NCBI RefSeq assembly: GCF_003367375.1 | Contig: NZ_CP031416.1 | Location: forward strand, 1,185,501 to 1,249,500 | Source of the DNA: Gallaecimonas mangrovi | GTDB taxonomy: Bacteria > Pseudomonadota > Gammaproteobacteria > Enterobacterales > Gallaecimonadaceae | DNA: 64,000 nt | Direction of reading: 5' to 3' | Shown here: piece after piece, positions 1,323 through 20,911 of the stretch | Layout: every line of letters begins with the position of its first letter | Numbering within the stretch: the first letter of the stretch is position 1 | Translations under genes and position numbers: made by a program | Notes under the pieces: model-generated | The model's input: the letters and a program-made list of their open reading frames with translations, nothing else | The model's database searches: none | Told to the model about the DNA's origin: nothing

Positions 1323-4064
1323 ATGCCGATGTTTCGCGTCTTACTGCTAAGCGCTTTACTCACTACCCCTGCCTTGGCCGCTGGCAGGCCGGTCACCTTG
1401 CAAGACTTAATGGCTTTTAAAGCCTTGGAAACGCCAACCGTGGCTGAGAACGGCAAGGTGATGGCTTTTTCAGCCCAGCCAGACCGGGGCGACCCTGTTG
1501 GTGTGGTGCGCCTGACCGATGGCAGCAAAAAACTGACGGTTGAACGTGGCACCGAGCCAACATTAACCCCCGATGGGCGCTATGTAGCGTTTTGGCAGCA
1601 GCCAACACTGTTGGCGCAAATAGAAGCCAAGCAACAAAAGAAAAAGGATAAGCCGCAAAAAGGCCTGGTGGTGATCGACAGCCAAACCGGGGCCAAGCAG
1701 CTGTTTGCCGATGTTAGCCGCTTTGCGCTGGCTGATAAGGGCGGCAAACTGGCGGTTGAAATGGCTGAAAAATCCGCAACCAAGGCTGATGACGACAAAA
1801 AAGCCAAGGCTGTCAAACAGCTTTGGCTGGTAGACCTTACCTCTGGTAAACGCCAAAACCTGGGCGCTGTGGGCGACTTTGCCTTTAAGCCGGCAAGCGA
1901 CGTACTGGCCTACGCTTTGGACCCTAAAGATGACAGCGCTGCCGGTGAGGTGCATTTACTGGCCGCTAAAGACCAGCTGCTGCAAAGCCGCAGTGGCCAG
2001 CTGTACCGGGACCTGACCTTTAGTAAAGACGGCAAACAGTTTGCTGCGCTACGTGGCCCTAAAAAAGAGGACGATAAAACCCGCGCCTATCAGGTGCTGG
2101 TCTTACAGGGCAGCCGCTTGCAGGCGCTGGTTACGCCGCAAGACAACTTTTATGTCAGTGCCCCTAATGAACTGCGCTTTAGTGAAGACGGCCGCCGCCT
2201 CTTTGTTGGCCGCAAACCCGTTGTAAAGCCTGATACCCGAACCACGCCGGATGTGCACAGCCAGGCCGATTTAACCAATATTGATAAAATCGTTGCCAGC
2301 CGAACCCTAGAGGTATGGCAGGGCGATGACCCACGTATTAAGCCAGAGGAAAAACTCACCTACAAAGAGCGCCAAAAGCACCTGTATTTAGGGGTTTTTC
2401 ACCTCAACAATGGCCGCTTTGTGCAGTTGGCTGACCGCAGCATGCCGGATGTCACTGTCGGTGAACAAAGCGGATTTTTACTGGGCGCCAGTGATATTCC
2501 CTACTTAAAAGCGGTTACCTGGAATGGTTTTTACAGTGATTACTATGCGGTGAACCCCTCGACCGGTGAGCGCACGCTGATTGCCAAGCACCTTAGCCAG
2601 CAACCCAGCCTGTCGCCACAGGGCCACTATGCGGTGTTCTTCCAAGGCGGCGACGTCAAAATTGCCGACATACGCCGCCACAAAGTGCTGAACCTGACCA
2701 AAGGTTTGCCAATCGGCTTTGGCAATGAAGACAACGACTACCCGGCGCCGGCGCCAGGCTACGGTTTTGGTCCTTGGTACAAGGATGGCTCGGCGGTACT
2801 GGTCTATGACAAGTTCGATGTCTGGCAGATGGGCAGCAACGGTAAAGCTACCCAGCTAACCCACAAGCGTGCTGACCAGTTGGAACTGCGGGTGGTGACC
2901 CCTGATGCCGACCAGCCTTATGTGGCCAAAGGCGACAAGCTGCTGCTGACCGGCTATTCCGACAAAGACAAATACACCGGCTTTTTTAGGCTAACCCTGG
3001 GCGAAAGCGGCGTGTCGCCGTTGCTGGTTTCCCCGAACACCTATCAGTTTGTGGCCAAAGCCAAAAACAGCGACACCTGGCTTTTCAGCAAAGAAGCCTT
3101 TAGCGAGTTCCCTGACTTGTGGGTGGCAAAAAGCGATTTTAGCGCGCCACGTAAACTGACCGATGTTAACCCGGTAACCAAAGAGTTTGCCTGGGGCAAA
3201 CCGGAGCTGGTGCATTGGCACAATATGGATGGCACTCCCCTTGATGGTGTGCTCATTAAGCCAGCGGGTTATCAGCCCGGTAAGCGCTACCCGGTATTGG
3301 TGTACTACTACCGCTTTATGACCGACCGCCTCTACCGTTTTAACGAGTTTAAAATCAACCACCGCCCTAACTTTGCCTATTACACCTCGCACGGTTACGC
3401 CATGTTCCTGCCTGACATTCGCTTTGATGTGGGCACGCCGGGTAAAAGCTCGGTATCAGCGTTGGTGCCAGGGGTGCAAAAACTGATTGATATGGGCATT
3501 GCCGACCCGAAAGCCATTGGCCTGCACGGTCATAGCTGGTCTGGTTATCAAACTGCCTATGTGGTGACCCAAACCAATATCTTTGCCGCCGCGGTGGCCG
3601 GGGCACCGGTAACCAATATGACCAGCGCTTATTCGGGTATTCGCTTGGGCAGCGGTCTTTCCCGCCAGTTCCAATATGAAACCGGCCAGAGCCGCATTGG
3701 CCAGAGCCTGTTTGAAGCGCCGGAGCTTTATATCGAGAACTCGCCCGTCTTTTATGCCGACCGTATTCATACACCACTGGTGATTGAATTTGGCGACAAA
3801 GACGATGCAGTGCCCTGGCAGCAAGGTATTGAGCTGTATTCGGCCATGCGCCGATTAGACAAACCCGTGGTTATGCTGCAATACGAGGGGGAGCCTCACC
3901 ACTTAAAGCAATACGGCAACAAGCTCGATTACACCATCAAGATGAAAGCGTTTTTTGACCACTTCTTAAAAGGCGCGCCAGCACCTGCCTGGTGGAGTAA
4001 AGGCCAGCCTTACCGGCCAGCGCCGAAAGCCAAAGAGCAGGAAAAAGCTCCTGCAAAAGTATAA
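1323..4064 (+). CDS. Secreted S9-family (prolyl oligopeptidase type) serine peptidase
   Basis: The product is 913 aa. A signal peptide (about residues 1-19, ending PALAA) sends it to the periplasm or outside. The middle resembles a WD/beta-propeller-like N-terminal domain as in S9 peptidases. The C-terminal third is an alpha/beta-hydrolase with nucleophile Ser738 in GHSWSG, Asp827 in DDAVP and a His at 859/860 in EPHHLK, so the catalytic triad looks complete. Family members cleave short peptides, often after Pro, Glu or dipeptides; the specificity cannot be read here. The start ATG at 1323 has AGGA upstream, and a second ATG at 1329 is possible. The open frame reaches back to 1146, but that part would hide the signal peptide. 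The gene is monocistronic and ends in a strong terminator. Confidence 0.85.
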   Translation: MPMFRVLLLSALLTTPALAAGRPVTLQDLMAFKALETPTVAENGKVMAFSAQPDRGDPVGVVRLTDGSKKLTVERGTEPTLTPDGRYVAFWQQPTLLAQIEAKQQKKKDKPQKGLVVIDSQTGAKQLFADVSRFALADKGGKLAVEMAEKSATKADDDKKAKAVKQLWLVDLTSGKRQNLGAVGDFAFKPASDVLAYALDPKDDSAAGEVHLLAAKDQLLQSRSGQLYRDLTFSKDGKQFAALRGPKKEDDKTRAYQVLVLQGSRLQALVTPQDNFYVSAPNELRFSEDGRRLFVGRKPVVKPDTRTTPDVHSQADLTNIDKIVASRTLEVWQGDDPRIKPEEKLTYKERQKHLYLGVFHLNNGRFVQLADRSMPDVTVGEQSGFLLGASDIPYLKAVTWNGFYSDYYAVNPSTGERTLIAKHLSQQPSLSPQGHYAVFFQGGDVKIADIRRHKVLNLTKGLPIGFGNEDNDYPAPAPGYGFGPWYKDGSAVLVYDKFDVWQMGSNGKATQLTHKRADQLELRVVTPDADQPYVAKGDKLLLTGYSDKDKYTGFFRLTLGESGVSPLLVSPNTYQFVAKAKNSDTWLFSKEAFSEFPDLWVAKSDFSAPRKLTDVNPVTKEFAWGKPELVHWHNMDGTPLDGVLIKPAGYQPGKRYPVLVYYYRFMTDRLYRFNEFKINHRPNFAYYTSHGYAMFLPDIRFDVGTPGKSSVSALVPGVQKLIDMGIADPKAIGLHGHSWSGYQTAYVVTQTNIFAAAVAGAPVTNMTSAYSGIRLGSGLSRQFQYETGQSRIGQSLFEAPELYIENSPVFYADRIHTPLVIEFGDKDDAVPWQQGIELYSAMRRLDKPVVMLQYEGEPHHLKQYGNKLDYTIKMKAFFDHFLKGAPAPAWWSKGQPYRPAPKAKEQEKAPAKV

Positions 4065-4758: not shown

Positions 4759-5498
4759 CCGGCTCCCCTTCTTAACTCTGACAAACCAAAGGGCAGAGGC
4801 AAATCACAGCGCAGGGTAACCAATTCCTTCGCCAGCAGTGCCGCCTCCTTGTCGGCTTGTACTTTCAGCACTGCCTTATCGCTAGCCTCTGATGCCAGTA
4901 TGTCAGCAAGATGACGATATTGCCCAAGAAGCTGCATCGCCGTTTTGGCACCGACGCCGGTCACCCCTGGCACGGCATTGGTGCTATCGCCGGTCAGCGC
5001 CAAGTAGTCGGTCAGCTGAGAAGGCCTTATGCCGAGCTTTTGCTGCCAATGCTCGCCGCCGAGAAATTGGCGGCTAAAAGCATCAAACTGCACTACGCCG
5101 GCATCGAGCAGTTGTGCGTAACCCTTGTCGGTTGAAACCACTGCGACCGCCACGCCATGGCTGCGCGCAGCTACGGCGGCGCTGGCGATAAGGTCATCGG
5201 CTTCTTCGCCGTCAGGAAACCAGCTTTTTAGCCCTAATTGTTGCCAAGCTTGGCTGATGTCGGTGAGTTTTGGAACCAGATCTTCCGGCATTGGGCTGCG
5301 CCCGGCTTTGTACTGCGCAAAGCGTTGGTAACGCCAAGACGGTGCCTTGCCATCAAAAACGGCCAGGGCATGGCTGGGCTGAAGTTCATCAGCGATGCGC
5401 TGCCAGGCGCTTTCACAGGCTTTAACCACCTGCGCACTGTTAGCAGCATGCAGGCGGCGAATAAGATTTAAGGCATCAATTAAAACCAGACGGAGCAT
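4755..5498 (-). CDS. xni: Flap endonuclease Xni (ExoIX-like)
   Basis: The 247-aa protein matches the Xni/YgdG family, a standalone homologue of the 5' nuclease domain of DNA polymerase I that cleaves 5' flaps. Acidic metal-binding clusters are visible in LIDALN, VFDGK and EEADDL. The later STDKGYAQLL and GVTGVGAKTA (helix-hairpin-helix DNA-binding) segments are typical. The start overlaps the ppnN stop by one base (TAATG), and its end overlaps the SDR start. In E. coli xni is also near ppnN, which supports the call. Confidence 0.9.
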   Translation of the reverse strand: MLRLVLIDALNLIRRLHAANSAQVVKACESAWQRIADELQPSHALAVFDGKAPSWRYQRFAQYKAGRSPMPEDLVPKLTDISQAWQQLGLKSWFPDGEEADDLIASAAVAARSHGVAVAVVSTDKGYAQLLDAGVVQFDAFSRQFLGGEHWQQKLGIRPSQLTDYLALTGDSTNAVPGVTGVGAKTAMQLLGQYRHLADILASEASDKAVLKVQADKEAALLAKELVTLRCDLPLPFGLSELRRGAG

Positions 5499-6856
5499 TA
5501 GTTTCGGGCAATTTTGTAGCAGGGATGATAGGCGGTGCCGGGTAATTTCATACGGCCCTGGAAGACGAAGTCTTTCAGAAGCTTGTCCATATCGGCCATG
5601 ATTTTCGGGTCGCCGTCGATAACAAAGGGGCCGTGCTTTTCAACGGCGCGAATACCTTGTTCTTTGACGTTACCGGCAACAATGCCCGAGAACACCCGAC
5701 GCAGGTTGGCGGCCAGAGCCACTTTACTTTGCCCAGGGTGCAAATGCAGATCGCGGATATTTTCGTGGTTGGGCTCGAAGGGCAGCTGCAATTCCGGCTC
5801 AATTTTTAGCGACCAGTTGTAGTAAAAGGCATCACCTTCTGCGCGCCGGTAGGCCAGCACTTCTGGCATGGCAGCTTTGAGGTGGCGGGCTACCATGTCG
5901 GCATCGTCAATGATGATTTGATAATGGTTGGCGGCTTCTTCGCCCAAGGTGGCACGAATGAACTCATCGAGCTTTTTAAAGTAACTGGCGCTTTGCTCGG
6001 GGCCAGTGAAAACAACAGGCAACGACTGCTTGCGGTTTTCCGGGTGCATTAATATCCCCAGCAGATAAAGGATCTCCTCGGCGGTACCCACACCACCCGG
6101 GAAAACAATAATGCCGTGGGCCATACGCACAAAGGCTTCCAGCCGTTTTTCAATGTCCGGCATGATGATCAGTTCGTTGACGATGGGGTTAGGTGGCTCG
6201 GCAGCAATAATGGACGGTTCTGTTAGCCCCATATAGCGTGCGCCACCTACCCGCTGCTTGGCATGGCCGATGGTGGCACCTTTCATTGGCCCTTCCATGG
6301 CGCCCGGCCCGCAGCCGGTGACAATGTTGAGTTCACGAAGGCCAAGCTGATACCCCACCGCGTGGCAATAATCGTATTCGGTATCACTAATGGAATGGCC
6401 GCCCCAGCACACAATCATGTTGGCTTCACCGCTGGGTTTTAAGGCATCGGCGTTACGCAGCATCGAAAACACCAGGTTAGTGACGTGGCTGGCCTGGGTG
6501 AGGTTAAGGTCGTCTTGGGCCTGCAGGCGTGTGGAAACGTACAAAATATCCCGCAGCACCGAGAACAGATTTTCGTGAATACCGCGAATAAGTTTGCCGT
6601 CAACAAAGGCTTCTTCCGGCGGGTTGACCAGTTCCAGTTTCACACCGCGCTCCCGGCGCAGGATGTTCACTTCAAAATTCTTGTATTTTTCTAATATTTC
6701 TTTGCTGGAGTCGGTTTTGCTACCGGAATTGAGTACCGCCAAGCAGCAATTTCGAAAGAGTTGGTAAAGGCTGGAACGGGAACTGGCTTTGAGGCTATCG
6801 ACTTCCAATTGCGACAGCATACTCATACTGCCGATGGGACTGAGCTGTACGATCAT
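5498..6856 (-). CDS. ppnN: Nucleotide 5'-monophosphate nucleosidase PpnN (YgdH)
   Basis: At 452 aa this matches the PpnN family, which hydrolyses purine and pyrimidine nucleoside monophosphates to base and ribose 5-phosphate. The central LOG-type Rossmann domain shows [14 protein letters not shown] and the PGGVGTAEE nucleotide-binding motif. The N- and C-terminal flanking domains are those of PpnN, not of the short LOG proteins. The E. coli enzyme is regulated by (p)ppGpp; I cannot confirm the binding residues here. The start has an excellent ribosome site (GGAGTAAGG directly before ATG) lying across the end of the upstream diguanylate cyclase gene, two bases away. Confidence 0.92.
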
Positions 6857-14909: not shown

Positions 14910-15140
14910 TCAGCGCAAACGCACGTTTAACTCGTCGATACTCTCGGCCCAATCTGAATCGGCTTTCAATCCTTCGCGCAAGAAGCTGGCTTGTGCCTGA
15001 TTCCAAAACGGTGCATCAGCCAAGTTAACTCGAGCATTTAAACCGTTGTGATTGGCGATAAAGGTTTCAATATCACCATGGCCATCGGGCAAACCGAGTT
15101 GAGCAAAGAGTTCACCGAGAGAATGAATAGGCTGTTCCAT
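14910..15140 (-). CDS. DUF2789 family small protein
   Basis: The 76-aa protein fits DUF2789: a helical start HSLGELFAQLGLP, the DAPFWNQAQASFLREGL core and a C-terminal ELNVRLR. The function is unknown. A ribosome site (AGGAGAACGCG, read on the minus strand) precedes the ATG. It is the first gene of the short minus-strand set DUF2789, 93-aa protein, DUF2310, and its start borders the Csr RNA locus. Confidence 0.8.
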   Translation of the reverse strand: MEQPIHSLGELFAQLGLPDGHGDIETFIANHNGLNARVNLADAPFWNQAQASFLREGLKADSDWAESIDELNVRLR

Positions 15141-15247: not shown

Positions 15248-15265
15248 TGTGCGAGATCTCTTACA
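15248..15265. promoter_or_regulatory. GacA/UvrY-type upstream activating palindrome 1
   Basis: TGTGCGAGATCTCTTACA matches the 18-bp inverted repeat recognised by GacA/UvrY/SirA-type response regulators (TGTnnG-N6-CTTACA with central AGATCT). Its centre is about 181 bp upstream of the predicted start of Csr RNA 1. Confidence 0.85.
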
Positions 15266-15331
15266 GACGTTAGGGTAAAGGCTGCTTCAACGGTCGAGAT
15301 AAGGCTGAAGTTCATTTTTAAGTTCATTACT

Positions 15332-15344
15332 AATCAATTGGTTA
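15332..15344 (+). promoter_or_regulatory. Candidate IHF site upstream of Csr RNA 1
   Basis: AATCAATTGGTTA is an exact match to the IHF consensus WATCAANNNNTTR. It lies between the GacA-type palindrome and the RNA 1 promoter. IHF is known to help activate csrB or rsmZ in some species by bending this interval. Comparably good matches were not seen upstream of RNA 2 or 3. Confidence 0.5.
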
Positions 15345-15403
15345 GTGTTTTTTTAGGGGCTTAACTAGGCATTTGGGTTGCCGCGAACTTAGAGAATGGG
15401 GGC

Positions 15404-15431
15404 TTGCGACGAGGCCTGAGTGACATATTAT
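15404..15431 (+). promoter_or_regulatory. Predicted promoter of Csr RNA 1
   Basis: TTGCGA (15404-15409) and TATTAT (15426-15431) with a 16-bp spacer. Initiation is expected near 15438, just before the first GGA hairpin. Confidence 0.55.
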
Positions 15432-15580
15432 TTATCACGTCAGCAGGACGCTGGCGGCAGGGATGAAGTAAGGAAATGCTGCAGGATGTAGCAAGCCTCA
15501 GGACGAGGATGGCAAGGCAGGATGTCTTGCCAGGTAAGGATAGCCAAATAGGACACCGGCATGAAGCCGTATTAGGGAAG

Positions 15581-15640
15581 TCCCAAGGATTGGGAGCATC
15601 AAGGAATGATGCAAGGAGCATGTAGCGCAAGGAATCGACA
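15581..15640 (+). repeat. 60-nt block shared by Csr RNAs 1 and 2 (copy 1)
   Basis: This block is repeated at 16072-16131 with a single difference (G versus A at position 42). It carries five AGGA/GGGA motifs in consecutive small hairpins, so it is a conserved CsrA-binding module. Confidence 0.92.
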
Positions 15641-15653
15641 CCGAGCCGCTCTT

Positions 15654-15692
15654 GGCCGGGATGGGGAAACCCACCCCGGCCGCCTTGTTTTT
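15654..15692 (+). terminator. Terminator of Csr RNA 1
   Basis: GGCCGGGATGGG (15654-15665), GAAA loop, CCCACCCCGGCC (15670-15681): a 12-bp stem with one mismatch, followed by the U-rich tail ending near 15692. Confidence 0.9.
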
Positions 15693-15744
15693 GGAACACC
15701 AAAAAGTACTTCCGCCTACCTTTAGAGAGATCGCAGCGCTTGTG

Positions 15745-15762
15745 TGTGCGAGATCTCTTACA
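15745..15762. promoter_or_regulatory. GacA/UvrY-type upstream activating palindrome 2
   Basis: TGTGCGAGATCTCTTACA, identical over all 18 bp to the copy at 15248. The centre is about 178 bp upstream of the predicted start of Csr RNA 2 and 497 bp from palindrome 1. Confidence 0.85.
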
Positions 15763-16071
15763 ATGCATAGCGTGATCAGCGAATTCGATATTTATCTTTT
15801 TATGCTTTTTTTCTAAAAAAGTATTTAGAAACATATGGTTGGTTTTGTTGTTTCTACGTTTTTATTATTACTTAAAACTTTTGTTTAGCTCTTTTCCGGT
15901 TGTTCTTGTTACGCCAAAAGATAATCTGGATATGTCAGATGGAGCTGACATGGAATGCAGGGATGAGGTTGCCGGAGTGGCAACAGGCCTCAGGAAGAGG
16001 TTGGTGGAGTAGGATGCTCGACCAGGTAGGGAAACGAGACAGGACAAAGGCACGGAGCCTAATAACGGAAA

Positions 16072-16131
16072 TCCCAAGGATTGGGAGCATCAAGGAATGA
16101 TGCAAGGAGCATATAGCGCAAGGAATCGACA
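16072..16131 (+). repeat. 60-nt block shared by Csr RNAs 1 and 2 (copy 2)
   Basis: 59 of 60 bases match 15581-15640. The flanking bases are more divergent, which suggests either recent duplication or gene conversion confined to this module. Confidence 0.92.
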
Positions 16132-16145
16132 TCCAAGCCGCTCTC

Positions 16146-16182
16146 ACCGGGAAGGGTTAACACTCTTCCCGGTTTCTTGTTT
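16146..16182 (+). terminator. Terminator of Csr RNA 2
   Basis: ACCGGGAAG (16146-16154) pairs with CTTCCCGGT (16165-16173), followed by TTCTTGTTT. Confidence 0.88.
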
Positions 16183-16217
16183 ATAAGGCCAAGCATTTTG
16201 TTTCTCCCCCTAAGGTT

Positions 16218-16235
16218 TGTGAGATATCTCTTACA
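16218..16235. promoter_or_regulatory. GacA/UvrY-type upstream activating palindrome 3
   Basis: TGTGAGATATCTCTTACA is a third copy of the 18-bp inverted repeat, with TGTGAG in place of TGTGCG and an ATATCT core. The centre is about 169 bp upstream of the predicted start of Csr RNA 3 and 473 bp from palindrome 2. Confidence 0.85.
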
Positions 16236-16361
16236 AGGCTGTAAGTCATTACATGCAAATGGCTAGCGACTTTTACTTTGTTGAATTGTCAAGTTGATGT
16301 TTTTAAATGATTTTATCTTTAATTTGTGGATCTCGTTTACGTTTTGTTTAAACTTTGGTGG

Positions 16362-16389
16362 TTGAGCTAAAACACCAATCCATTAATCT
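16362..16389 (+). promoter_or_regulatory. Predicted promoter of Csr RNA 3
   Basis: TTGAGC (16362-16367) and TAATCT (16384-16389) with a 16-bp spacer, giving initiation near 16396, right before the first hairpin. Confidence 0.45.
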
Positions 16390-16395
16390 CTTAAG

Positions 16396-16624
16396 TGTGG
16401 CAAGGGAAATCGCCACAAGGATGAAACCAAGGTTGGTGAGGACAAGGACTCAAGCTTTAGGGATGAAGAAGGCGATGCAGGAAGCGAGCCTGGCAGGATG
16501 CCGAAAAGGACAGCGGTAGGATACCGAAAGGGAACTGCAAGGAACGCAGGAACGGATTCCAGCAAAACGGATTTTTCTTTTATGATGCGCCGACCAGTGA
16601 AAGCTGGCCGGCGCTTCCATTTTT
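16396..16624 (+). ncRNA. CsrB/RsmZ-like CsrA-sequestering sRNA, copy 3 (divergent)
   Basis: About 230 nt with 14 GGA triplets before the terminator. Clear GGA-loop hairpins are GTGGC/GCCAC at the 5' end (16397-16416), GGC-AGGAT-GCC, CGGT-AGGAT-ACCG and CTGC-AAGGAA-CGCAG. It lacks the 60-nt module of copies 1 and 2, so only the architecture is shared. It has its own GacA-type palindrome and terminator. The terminator stem lies directly against the 3' end of the convergent DUF3301 gene. Confidence 0.86.
16587..16624 (+). terminator. Terminator of Csr RNA 3
   Basis: GCGCCGACCAG (16587-16597) pairs with CTGGCCGGCGC (16604-16614) with one mismatch, then TTCCATTTTT. The convergent DUF3301 stop codon overlaps the T-run. 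Confidence 0.85.
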
Positions 16625-16922
16625 AGGTCGGAAAAATTTCTCGCATCACCGGCCACTGCACATCAATCACCCGGCGCCCATGCATCACAAAGTGCGCCTG
16701 GTAGCGCTCTTCTGGTGCCAGGCTAAAGTCCAGCAAATAGTGGTGCAAGAGTTTGCCCTTTTGCCATTGCCTTTTAACCAAGGCGACATCTAGCATCTGT
16801 AGCTGCTGGCGTTGGCAGAGCTGCTTTGCACTATTGCGTGCCCATTCTTCCTGCTGGCGCAGTCGCCAAAATAGAAAAATGCCAATGGCAGCCAACAGCA
16901 AAAACAGCCATTGCTCATTCAA
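16623..16922 (-). CDS. DUF3301 family membrane-anchored small protein
   Basis: 99 aa. An N-terminal membrane segment (LFLLLAAIGIFLFW, about 6-19) is followed by a basic soluble part. The pattern WARNSAKQLCQRQQLQMLDVALV and the C-terminal WPVMREIFP match the DUF3301 family. Function unknown. It overlaps the upstream DUF3549 gene by 4 bp, so the two are coupled. Known neighbours in other gammaproteobacteria are the same. Confidence 0.75.
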   Translation of the reverse strand: MNEQWLFLLLAAIGIFLFWRLRQQEEWARNSAKQLCQRQQLQMLDVALVKRQWQKGKLLHHYLLDFSLAPEERYQAHFVMHGRRVIDVQWPVMREIFPT

Positions 16923-17866: not shown

Positions 17867-17927
17867 AAAAAGGGCATTATAGGGAGCTTGGCTTTGCTAT
17901 CCTAGGCACTCTTTTCAAGGAGTGGTT

Positions 17928-18263
17928 ATGGCGGATAAAAAACAGCAAGCATTGCTGCTGCTTCAAGAGATTGAAATGCAAATGCGTTTACAGCGACTGT
18001 GGGCTGACGAGCACCCCGGTGAGGCAGCCTTATCAAGTGCTGAACCCTTCGCTGTTGACACCTTAAGTTTTGAACAATGGGTGCAGTTTATTTACCTGCC
18101 CAAGCTCAAAGTATTGATTGAAATTGACCAAGCGCCTGTCAATGTCAGCGTTTGCCCTATGGCGGAAGAATCCTGGCGTGAACACGGTGACCGCTTAAAT
18201 CCGTTGCTGGATTTGGTCGCTGATCTTGACGAACTACTTAGTGGTAAACGTGTACGCGAATGA
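17928..18263 (+). CDS. yqcC: YqcC family protein
   Basis: 111 aa from the ATG at 17928, which has an ideal AAGGAG five bases upstream; a GTG two codons earlier overlaps that site and is rejected. It matches the YqcC/DUF446 family: helical, acidic, with the FEQWVQFIYLPKLKVLIE core. Function unknown. It is the first gene of yqcC-truC-yqcA-PTS and overlaps truC (ATGA). The same trio follows csrB in E. coli. Confidence 0.88.
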   Translation: MADKKQQALLLLQEIEMQMRLQRLWADEHPGEAALSSAEPFAVDTLSFEQWVQFIYLPKLKVLIEIDQAPVNVSVCPMAEESWREHGDRLNPLLDLVADLDELLSGKRVRE

Positions 18264-19021
18264 TGCTGCCCATCTGTTATCAAGACCAACATCTGGTGGT
18301 GATAGATAAGCCTGCCGGGCTTATGGTGCATCGCTCAAAAATTGCCAGTGGTGAACGTGTCTTTGCCATGCAGTTATTAAGGGACCAGCTAGGGCAACAT
18401 GTCTTTCCGGTGCACCGCTTAGACAGGCCCACCTCGGGGTTACTTTTGTTCGCACTGTCGAGTGATGTTGCAAGGTTACTTACCGCACAGTTCACCGAGC
18501 GGCAGGTAAAGAAAAGTTACCTAAGCATTGTGCGTGGCTGGGTTCAAGAAGGGGCTTTGCTGGACTACCCGCTAGTAGAAGAACATGACCCTATCATGGG
18601 CCAGCCCCGTAAAGATAAAAGCGCGCAAGAAGCGGTAACGGCTTATGCGCCCTTGGTACACGGTGAATTGCCCTTTGCGGTGGGGCGCTATAATTCAGCG
18701 CGTTACAGCTTAATGAGCTGCTCACCTAAAACCGGGCGACGCCATCAATTGCGGCGACACTTTGACCACTTGCGTCATCCTATTATCAATGACACCACCC
18801 ATGGTGACGGCAAACATAACCGCTTTTTTAGAGAGCAAATGGCCTTTAGTGAACTTGGCTTGCGGGCCTGGCGGTTGTCGTTCACTCACCCCGTTACCGG
18901 CTTGGCGTTGGATATTAAAGCCCAACTGCCGGTAAGCTGGCTGTCGTTATTTGAAAAGTTTGGCTGGGACAGCAATGCCGTGATGGCAAAAGCGGATGCC
19001 TGGCACCAACAGGAAGCATAA
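18260..19021 (+). CDS. truC: tRNA pseudouridine(65) synthase TruC
   Basis: The 253-aa RluA-family enzyme isomerises U65 in certain tRNAs. The catalytic motif HRLDRPTSGLLLFA contains the nucleophile Asp55. The N-terminal YQDQHLVVIDKPAGLMVH and the C-terminal KTGRRHQLRRHF segments are family hallmarks. The start may be either of two adjacent ATGs (18260/18263); the first overlaps the yqcC stop. It is followed with no gap by yqcA. Confidence 0.93.
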   Translation: MMLPICYQDQHLVVIDKPAGLMVHRSKIASGERVFAMQLLRDQLGQHVFPVHRLDRPTSGLLLFALSSDVARLLTAQFTERQVKKSYLSIVRGWVQEGALLDYPLVEEHDPIMGQPRKDKSAQEAVTAYAPLVHGELPFAVGRYNSARYSLMSCSPKTGRRHQLRRHFDHLRHPIINDTTHGDGKHNRFFREQMAFSELGLRAWRLSFTHPVTGLALDIKAQLPVSWLSLFEKFGWDSNAVMAKADAWHQQEA

Positions 19022-19471
19022 ATGGCCTCAATCCATATGGTATGTGGCACCGTTTATGGTGCTGCGGAACAATTAGCGCAAACCCTTGCAAAAAAACTTC
19101 AAGCCGCCGGCCATCAGGCCCGGTTAATTGATCCACCTACCGTTGCCGAAGTGGTGCGTGACCGCCCAGACGCACTGTTGGTAGTTACCTCTACCACCGG
19201 CCAGGGGGATATTCCCGACAACTTGGTTCCTTTTTTTACAGAACTAAATGACCAGTTTCCCATGTTAAACGGCTTACCTTTTGGGGTGGTCACGTTAGGC
19301 GACTCCAGCTACGGCGACACCTACTGCGGCGCCGGTGTGCAGTTTGAAGCGCTGCTTGAGGAGCTTGGTGGCAAGGCGTTATTGCCAATGCTAAAAATTG
19401 ACGCCTGTGAAACCCTAGAGCCTGAGGAAGACGCTCTGCCGTGGCTCGATAAATGGAGCCAAGCCCTTTAA
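19022..19471 (+). CDS. yqcA: Flavodoxin YqcA
   Basis: The 149-aa short flavodoxin is of the MioC/YqcA type. FMN-phosphate loop GTVYGAAEQLA (about 9-19), the TTGQGDIP loop and GDSSYGDTYCGAG near 100 are the FMN-binding segments. It probably carries electrons for an unidentified reductase. It starts one base after the truC stop. In E. coli it closes the same operon. Confidence 0.9.
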   Translation: MASIHMVCGTVYGAAEQLAQTLAKKLQAAGHQARLIDPPTVAEVVRDRPDALLVVTSTTGQGDIPDNLVPFFTELNDQFPMLNGLPFGVVTLGDSSYGDTYCGAGVQFEALLEELGGKALLPMLKIDACETLEPEEDALPWLDKWSQAL

Positions 19472-20911
19472 GTGAGCAAACTCCTTTTCGCCAGGGCCCA
19501 ACGCTTGGGCCAAGCCTTAATGCTGCCGGTTGCGATTTTACCGGCGGCAGGTTTGGTGCTGGGCTTGGGGGCAGCGGCGCCTAGCTGGCTGTCGCCGTCT
19601 ATAGCGGCGTGGTTTTATCAAACCGGTGATGCCGTTTTTGCGCATCTCGGGTTGTTATTTGCGGTTGGCGTGGCAACAGGCCTTAGCCGCAATGATGGCA
19701 GCGCCGCGCTGGCGGCGGTGATTGCCTATCTCATTACTAACGCCGGGCTCAATGCTTTTACCGGTGGCCCGGTGGACACCGGGGCGGCGGGTGGCGTGGT
19801 CGTTGGGTTAATGGTGGCTTATGTGGCTTCTTTTAGCCGTCACTGGCAGCCGCCTGCAGCGCTAGCCTTTTTCTCTGGTCCCCGGCTGTTAGCGGCGCTG
19901 GTGGTTTTCCCGGCATTAATGTTGTCGGCAAGTCTTGCCACCATTTGGCCGACCTTGTCGCAATGGATAGCGCACTTTTCCCATTGGGTATCCGATGGCG
20001 ACCCGGTTGCGGCCTGGGGCCTTTATGGCGTTGTTGATCGTTTTCTTTCGCCGCTTGGGCTTCAGCATATTTGGAATGTGCCTTTCTTTACCGAATCGGG
20101 CGGTGTCTGTGTGTGGGACGGCAAAGTGGTGCCCGTTGATAAGGCCAGCTGCTATGGCAGTTGGATCCGTGGTGAAATTCGGCGGTTTCTGGCCGGCGAT
20201 CCAACGGCTGGCCACTTAGCGGGCGGTTATCTCACCAAACTGGTGGGCCTGCCTGCAGCTGCCTTGGCCATTTGGTTAAGGGCACGCCCGGCAGAAAGGG
20301 CTAAAGTGGGCGGCATTATGTTGTCGGCGGCTCTGGCCTCGGCAATAACCGGGGTCACTGAACCATTAGAATTCTCGTTTTTGTTTGTGGCGCCATCGCT
20401 TTATGTGTTTCATGCACTGATGAATGGCTTGGCCTTTGTGGTGTGTATTCTGTTAGGCGTTCACCATGGCATGGGGTATTCGCAAGGGCTTATTGATTTT
20501 GTTGCCTATTGGCCTCTTGCCAATCACTTAGGGCCGCTTTTTTGGTTAGCGCCACTGTGGGCTTTTATTTATTTTTCAGTGTTCTATGTGTCTATCGGTG
20601 CGTTTAAATTACCCACGCCAGGGCGCGCTGATAGTGCCGAAAAAGAACCTGAAGCAGAACAAGTGCCGAAAACCATTCAAGTGGTGGCAGACGCGCTGCT
20701 GGCAGCCCTTGGCGGCCGTGACAATCTGCGTCAGGTGGATGCCTGTATTACCCGCCTGCGTTTACAAGTGGCAGACCCTGACATGGTTGATAAAAAGGCT
20801 TGTCGCCGCTTGGGGGCAAGTGGGGTACTGGTGATAGGGCAGGGGGTACAATTGGTGTTTGGGGTGAGAGCTGCCAATCTGCGAGACGCTTTAAACCGGT
20901 TACTGACCTAA
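19472..20911 (+). CDS. PTS permease EIIBC, glucose/GlcNAc family
   Basis: The 479-aa inner-membrane protein takes up and phosphorylates a hexose using phosphate from PEP via HPr/EIIA. The EIIC domain (about 1-385) has the family sequences QHIWNVPF, GEIRRFLAGDPTAG and ITGVTEPLEFSFLF. The C-terminal EIIB domain carries phospho-acceptor Cys425 in DACITRLRL. No EIIA is fused or adjacent, so it must use one encoded elsewhere. It is closest to PtsG/NagE, with glucose or N-acetylglucosamine as likely substrate. The start is GTG, one base after the yqcA stop. A loop with extra Cys residues (GGVCVWDG...ASCYG) is unusual. Confidence 0.85.
   Translation: MSKLLFARAQRLGQALMLPVAILPAAGLVLGLGAAAPSWLSPSIAAWFYQTGDAVFAHLGLLFAVGVATGLSRNDGSAALAAVIAYLITNAGLNAFTGGPVDTGAAGGVVVGLMVAYVASFSRHWQPPAALAFFSGPRLLAALVVFPALMLSASLATIWPTLSQWIAHFSHWVSDGDPVAAWGLYGVVDRFLSPLGLQHIWNVPFFTESGGVCVWDGKVVPVDKASCYGSWIRGEIRRFLAGDPTAGHLAGGYLTKLVGLPAAALAIWLRARPAERAKVGGIMLSAALASAITGVTEPLEFSFLFVAPSLYVFHALMNGLAFVVCILLGVHHGMGYSQGLIDFVAYWPLANHLGPLFWLAPLWAFIYFSVFYVSIGAFKLPTPGRADSAEKEPEAEQVPKTIQVVADALLAALGGRDNLRQVDACITRLRLQVADPDMVDKKACRRLGASGVLVIGQGVQLVFGVRAANLRDALNRLLT

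Follow-up and report, generated by a model that had tools for sequence, protein, structure and literature searches.

The closest described relative of the locus reported here is csrB of E. coli K-12 (Rfam family RF00018), a single gene annotated at 369 nt, whose RNA has 22 GGA motifs (PMC11882849), whose UvrY box is centred at -183/-182 and whose expression is reported to be aided by IHF (both PMC4682653); papers are cited here and below from portions of their text. Copies that lie side by side have also been described. In Shewanella, csrB1 and csrB2 (about 420 bp each; their prediction is credited to Kulkarni et al. 2006 by PMC3171408) are neighbours, each with a UvrY box and each dependent on BarA and UvrY; a transposase gene lies between them in S. 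oneidensis MR-1, and they are adjacent in S. putrefaciens CN-32 (PMC3171408). Two tandem pairs are tabled for Pseudomonas (PMC7911923): rsmX-1/rsmX-2 of P. brassicacearum, where each rsmX copy has a GacA box and belongs to the Gac-Rsm system, and rsmX-3/-4 of P. syringae. A triple has been reported for Alteromonas macleodii Te101, in which Aln1a, b and c are made from three start sites mapped within a single intergenic region of 404 bp, and this region gave most of the sRNA-type primary reads of the strain (PMC5864184). A 2014 review, in the part available, gives Csr/Rsm siblings as distal only (PMC4211561), and no tandem arrays are described in the available parts of papers on the Csr sRNAs of Vibrio (PMC6262261) and Pseudoalteromonas (PMC11882849, PMC9927453).

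We analysed a stretch of 64,000 nucleotides from Gallaecimonas mangrovi (NZ_CP031416.1, positions 1,185,501 to 1,249,500; hereafter the window). A gap of ∼1.5 kb between its DUF2789 and DUF3301 genes has no recognised protein gene (judged from the list of open frames and a Pfam comparison of the longest one), and was proposed in a preliminary description to hold three tandem CsrB-type sRNA units. Our analysis agrees: the three units lie in direct tandem on the plus strand, between 15248 and 16627 (∼1.4 kb; Table 1). That they are three CsrB-type sRNA genes is well supported by comparison of sequences; unit 3 is divergent, and its assignment is less certain. The identification is carried by Rfam matches that are significant although below threshold, the spacing of the boxes, the place of the array at the csrB locus, conservation in the genus, covariation in units that resemble units 1 and 2, and the presence of a full Csr system. 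We therefore read the gap as the csrB locus, with three tandem CsrB-type sRNA genes that would be driven by UvrY, would titrate CsrA and would have arisen by local duplication, and give this reading a probability of about 0.93.

Table 1. Features of the array, its surroundings and related loci (positions are those of the window unless a stretch label is given)
Feature	Position	Strand	Basis and remarks
DUF2789 gene, flanking	14910..15140	-	Pfam PF10982
Unit 1 UvrY/GacA box TGTGCGAGATCTCTTACA	15248..15265	+	0 mismatches; centre -181.5
IHF-consensus match AATCAATTGGTTA, unit 1, between box and promoter	15332..15344	+	0 mismatches; -106 from unit start
Unit 1, putative CsrB-type sRNA, 17 GGA	15438..15694	+	RF00018, fold, covariation; start inferred
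Unit 1 terminator-like hairpin and T-run	15654..15692	+	read from sequence; -17.1 kcal/mol for piece from 15656
Unit 2 UvrY/GacA box TGTGCGAGATCTCTTACA	15745..15762	+	0 mismatches; centre -178.5
Unit 2, putative CsrB-type sRNA, 17 GGA	15932..16183	+	RF00018, fold, covariation
Unit 2 intrinsic terminator	16146..16182	+	consensus scan; -19.8 kcal/mol
Unit 3 UvrY/GacA box TGTGAGATATCTCTTACA	16218..16235	+	1 mismatch; centre -169.5
Unit 3, putative CsrB-type sRNA, 14 GGA, divergent	16396..16627	+	RF00018, fold
Unit 3 terminator-like hairpin and T-run, touching DUF3301 3' end	16587..16624	+	read from sequence; -16.7 kcal/mol for piece from 16588
DUF3301 gene, flanking, convergent with unit 3	16623..16922	-	Pfam PF11743
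yqcC-truC-yqcA, csrB neighbours in E. coli K-12	17922..19471	+	Pfam DUF446, PseudoU_synth_2, Flavodoxin_1; tblastn with E. coli proteins
Extra segment before array, congeners	L119 ~2653-3680; L120 ~2602-3404; L121 ~4885-5871		
Giant CsrB-like gene, G051	L133:2729-3582	+	12.6 copies; 63 GGA in ~850 nt
Giant CsrB-like gene, G005	L123:2512-3264	+	10.8 copies; 56 GGA in ~750 nt

The array has in common with E. coli csrB its chromosomal place, a UvrY palindrome some 180 bp upstream, hairpins rich in GGA and a terminator-like end; it differs in having three copies where E. coli has one, in the length of the units (232-257 nt) and in the number of GGA motifs in each (14-17), and its units score under the RF00018 gathering threshold, the inclusion rule of formal CsrB/RsmB family members. 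Aln1a-c likewise are three CsrB-like sRNAs in one intergenic region, packed into less than a third of the length occupied here, a likeness in number and arrangement (PMC5864184, in part). The Shewanella locus has two copies, each longer than the three units of the window (PMC3171408, in part), and the rsmX genes of Pseudomonas, tandem like the window units, are ∼107-113 nt long, have fewer GGA motifs and come in pairs instead of triples (PMC7911923, in part).

The Rfam CsrB model aligned over its full length in all three units, with 42.8 bits for unit 1 (E 5.7e-10; match 15399-15691), 33.0 bits for unit 2 (E 5.2e-7) and 33.5 bits for unit 3 (E 3.8e-7). The Rfam check proposed beforehand thus found the expected family for every unit, every score being below the gathering level (71 bits), so the filing of the units in this family rests on the other evidence. 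When Rfam is run at gathering scores no match is reported in the gap, which is why it is blank in routine annotation; the only RNA match of gathering level in the window is a t44 RNA (RF00127; 25607-25694, plus strand, 79.5 bits). RF00018 found no further csrB copy in the genome at E≤10, a search that could miss a strongly diverged copy and that is loose (eight of 14 control genomes also match at this level, and one of 14 at E 0.001).

In E. coli K-12, csrB is flanked by syd, beyond which lies queF, on one side and by yqcC-truC-yqcA on the other. The gene order in the window is queF-syd-DUF2310-small frame-DUF2789-array-DUF3301-DUF3549-yqcC-truC-yqcA; the array thus lies between the same neighbours, with DUF2310, the small frame and DUF2789 in between on the syd side and DUF3301 and DUF3549 on the yqcC side. 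We take the site to be the old gamma-proteobacterial csrB locus, as judged from gene order. The order of the window is kept in four congeners (G001-G004; stretches L118-L121), in some of which queF is cut by the end of the stretch, and in G053, a genome of another family, as far as its stretch reaches. In G014, syd, the array, DUF3549, yqcC, truC and yqcA are present, and DUF2310, DUF2789 and DUF3301 were not detected in its stretch. Two observations may be added on the surroundings: in G002, G003 and G004 the first box is separated from DUF2789 by an extra 0.8-1.0 kb that may hold another gene, and a frame directly after yqcA in the window (19472-20911, plus strand) looks by eye like a sugar PTS transporter.

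An 18-bp palindrome of the GacA/UvrY type had been noticed before each unit, and a search of the whole 4.07-Mb genome with the pattern TGTNNGAGATCTCTTACA (at most three mismatches) bears this out: among 16 strand-matches the best three sites are the boxes of the array. The reversed pattern gave nine matches in the same genome, a number that is a total only, without mismatch numbers. The next-best site (G000:C1:1651103-1651120; L008) is a weak palindrome (two mismatches) that precedes, by a few hundred bases, the match to the kinase domain in a frame for a hybrid histidine kinase; it may be a chance match or sit inside that frame, and we do not count it as a further UvrY site, as it is indistinguishable from chance by this control. 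The predicted UvrY palindromes are centred 170-182 bp before the starts of the units, a spacing that resembles that of E. coli csrB. Across the units of the genus the box centres range from -157.5 to -182.5; the unit 2 box is identical in all five genomes of the genus, and the remaining boxes have 0-3 mismatches (the better orientation being taken).

The interval that follows each box had been called AT-rich, and it is: the box-to-start intervals (160-172 bp) have 58, 71 and 68% AT for units 1, 2 and 3, compared with 48% for the window. A promoter scan reported a single sigma-70-like site, immediately upstream of unit 1 (2.1 are expected in shuffles); for units 2 and 3 it reported no promoter of the sigma-70 consensus type. 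An IHF-type site was scored against a consensus that we take to be WATCAANNNNTTR. Besides the perfect match before unit 1, perfect matches are found at -104 in unit 1 of G001 and at -106 in unit 1 of G003; none with at most one mismatch is found for units 2 and 3 of the window or for unit 1 of G002 and G004.

The preliminary count of 14-16 GGA motifs per segment was slightly off (see Table 1 for the actual numbers), and these numbers are reached in 0, 0.14 and 0.5% of 5000 dinucleotide shuffles of units 1, 2 and 3 (shuffle means 8.4, 9.9 and 8.4). The window has on average ∼2 GGA per 250 nt. Ranked by GGA density over both strands, the 60 stretches of this length at the top of the list all overlap the array. 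Folding of the segments, proposed in the same description, found each unit stabler than all of its 200 shuffles (z-scores -5.0, -4.6 and -2.9). The statement that the motifs are mostly in hairpin loops was too strong: in the minimum-energy folds 7/17, 7/17 and 3/14 motifs are wholly inside hairpin loops, and 10/17, 11/17 and 6/14 are wholly unpaired, so that many GGA motifs are free in units 1 and 2 and this is only partly the case in unit 3.

It is very improbable that there are no sponge RNAs here at all and that the gap is GGA-rich by chance or codes for protein. Open frames do exist in it, the longest one encoding 157 aa on the minus strand (15361-15834) along with smaller ones; the 157-aa frame, the only one scanned, has no Pfam match, for which reason we rejected the coding reading of the gap, and a box, a GGA-rich structured segment and a hairpin occur together three times and are kept in the congeners with compensatory changes, which argues against both chance and coding.

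An intrinsic terminator had been described for each unit; a hairpin is indeed found at all three unit ends, and a consensus scan flagged only that of unit 2 (by eye, the T-runs of units 1 and 3 begin a few bases late). The offset T-run of unit 1, the direct same-strand arrangement and the distances from one unit end to the next start (237 and 212 bp) would be compatible with read-through of the inner terminators, by which a long double or triple RNA would be made as a distinct product, in the manner of PrrH of Pseudomonas aeruginosa, which comes from the prrF genes, likewise in tandem (PMC4211561, in part). We consider such a product unlikely: every unit has a strong hairpin and, at activator distance, a box of its own, and the two csrB RNAs of Shewanella oneidensis are transcribed separately (PMC3171408, in part).

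The array is conserved in the genus: the locus has three GGA-rich units in each of G001, G003 and G004, while G002 has two, and RF00018 at E≤0.01 matches three in G001, three in G003, two in G004 and two in G002. The unit of G004 that has no RF00018 match is its unit 1, counted by GGA density, box and hairpin; this unit (L121:4321-4703, minus strand) is enlarged to 383 nt with 26 GGA, and the enlargement consists, by eye, of internal repeats of ∼75 nt. For an analysis of covariation we aligned ten of the 14 units of the genus, omitting as divergent unit 3 of the window, of G001 and of G003 and unit 1 of G004. The consensus fold has 54 pairs, of which 47 in ten hairpins were kept (two long-range and five inner pairs were dropped), and 95.5% of the alignment cells are paired. 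Two-sided changes are seen in 19 of the 47 pairs, compared with a shuffle mean of 7.5 (none of 500 shuffles reaches 19; kinship among the units inflates this contrast) and with 0-7 in controls with slid partners (part of this excess is built in, as the structure was drawn from the same alignment). The compensatory changes support the predicted hairpins of units 1 and 2, and covarying hairpins are thus found on ten of the 14 units, with unit 3 of the window among those omitted. The 3' part is near-invariant in sequence and for this reason says little on pairing. A 3' block (∼15576-15652 in unit 1, ∼16067-16144 in unit 2) is almost invariant across the ten aligned units and extends well beyond the GGA motifs; it is perhaps a decay or processing signal.

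Units 1 and 2 share a block of 104 nt that is 85% identical, and unit 3 has 52% identity to unit 1 and 48% to unit 2. In a tree of the 14 units, unit 2 of the window groups with unit 2 of G001 (support 97) and unit 3 of the window with unit 3 of G001 (99; mutual identity 77%), and the latter group is joined by unit 3 of G003 and unit 1 of G004 (97, 93). The two units of G002 are sisters (100 and 99 in two trees), and so are units 2 and 3 of G004 (79 and 83); both pairings can be due to recent duplication or conversion. The remaining nodes are weaker (12-82), and the deeper branching order is uncertain, as the sequences are short and the branches long. Gene conversion between units 1 and 2 is hinted at by some shared species-specific sites of the 3' block, but they are too few for a claim.

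The divergence of unit 3 raises the question whether CsrA sponge function is confined to units 1 and 2, with unit 3 decaying or repurposed. Besides its low identity to the other two, unit 3 has the weakest fold, one mismatch in its box and no copy of the conserved 3' block, and the third copy of G003 is only 57% identical to that of the window and 60% to that of G001. The third copies of the window and G001, however, form the strongly supported group given above, keep their richness in GGA, the box (one and three mismatches) and the terminator hairpin, and RF00018 scores unit 3 of the window as high as unit 2. A loss of sponge function in unit 3 is thus a minor possibility, to be taken more seriously than the read-through product, and we keep to three CsrB-type genes.

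The genome has the proteins that such RNAs would work with: CsrA (one gene), UvrY (69% identity), BarA (47% identity over residues 1-913) and a CsrD-like protein (30% over residues 149-628; 195.8 bits, compared with 85.4 for the next match). The sites, the folds of units 1 and 2, synteny, conservation and the presence of CsrA, UvrY and BarA are computed; from them we infer transcription, binding of UvrY, IHF and CsrA and an effect of dosage, as follows. Local duplication at the csrB locus is the most likely origin of the three copies, each of which is probably its own transcription unit. UvrY phosphorylated by its kinase BarA would bind the palindrome upstream of each start, perhaps assisted at unit 1 by IHF; RNA polymerase would start an RNA of ∼232-257 nt, and an intrinsic terminator would end each. 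The GGA motifs of each RNA would be exposed in loops and single-stranded linkers, and by titration the RNAs would draw CsrA, encoded by one gene only, away from mRNAs; with tandem copies a single regulatory input may yield a larger dose of sponge.

Three copies in direct tandem had been thought uncommon, and here the preliminary description was not supported. We surveyed 59 genomes (G. mangrovi, the four congeners and 54 others of the order) with RF00018 at E≤0.001, a strict filter by which weak matches are lost (it finds two of the three units of the window). Matches are found in 30 of the 59 genomes, and 24 have two or more. Copies are clustered (at least two on one strand, within 1.5 kb and 100 nt or more apart) in 16 of these 24 genomes, from eight families, five of the 16 being from the genus of the window; the other eight have scattered or abutting matches. 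Three genomes of family f2 (G005, G030 and G051) were rejected as direct tandems, as a frame of ∼218 aa lies between their copies, which leaves 13 of the 24 genomes, from seven families, with tandem copies without a long intervening frame (among them G023, in which one of two gaps holds a 154-aa frame). In family f10, arrays of three to five copies, with less than 1 kb between any two neighbours, are found in nine of 12 genomes. In the f10 arrays of G013, G037 and G057 a clear box is found before the first copy only, and by eye each copy ends with its own hairpin and T-run; the array of G013 (L124:3364-6435, minus strand) has five tandem csrB-like units, with a perfect UvrY box at the first only. 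Other tandem arrays (e.g. those of G013, G023 and G037) have none of the neighbour genes of the window within the fetched stretches, so they are probably elsewhere than at the csrB locus.

From the survey counts and the f10 arrays, the tandem csrB arrangement is recurrent across the order as far as such matches tell, and together with Aln1a-c, csrB1/csrB2 and the rsmX pairs already in print this speaks against the supposed rarity. The preliminary interpretation is as a whole partly supported: its identification of the locus stands, and its claim of rarity is not supported.

Family f2 has, in addition, a giant CsrB-like RNA gene made of tandem units of 51-52 nt with four GGA each (Table 1). The gene in L133 folds with a z-score of -8.4 against 20 shuffles; a site at -215 has five mismatches to the UvrY consensus and resembles the sites before the other copies of that genus. 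The repeat is matched in all 11 genomes of its genus that were examined (in one of them by 58 bases only, and in several at contig ends). We suggest, tentatively and at well below even odds, that tandem csrB arrays may be a dose-setting device that many lineages of the order reached independently, by duplication at the csrB locus or elsewhere or by repeat expansion within one RNA (up to 63 GGA), and that graded boxes, with one perfect box kept and the others drifting, might let phosphorylated UvrY recruit the copies stepwise.

Among the papers listed in our literature searches, none deals with three csrB copies at this site, and a search for Gallaecimonas together with csrB gave none. The locus is newly identified; tandem CsrB-type arrays as such are already known, a triple having been published as Aln1a-c. 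Rfam at its gathering threshold misses the locus in all five genomes of the genus. For the biology of the bacterium, the finding fills a blank of 1.4 kb with what is likely the main output of BarA/UvrY, and, as tandem copies recur across the order, the genus and its relatives are well suited to the question of why sponge RNAs have multiplied at one site.
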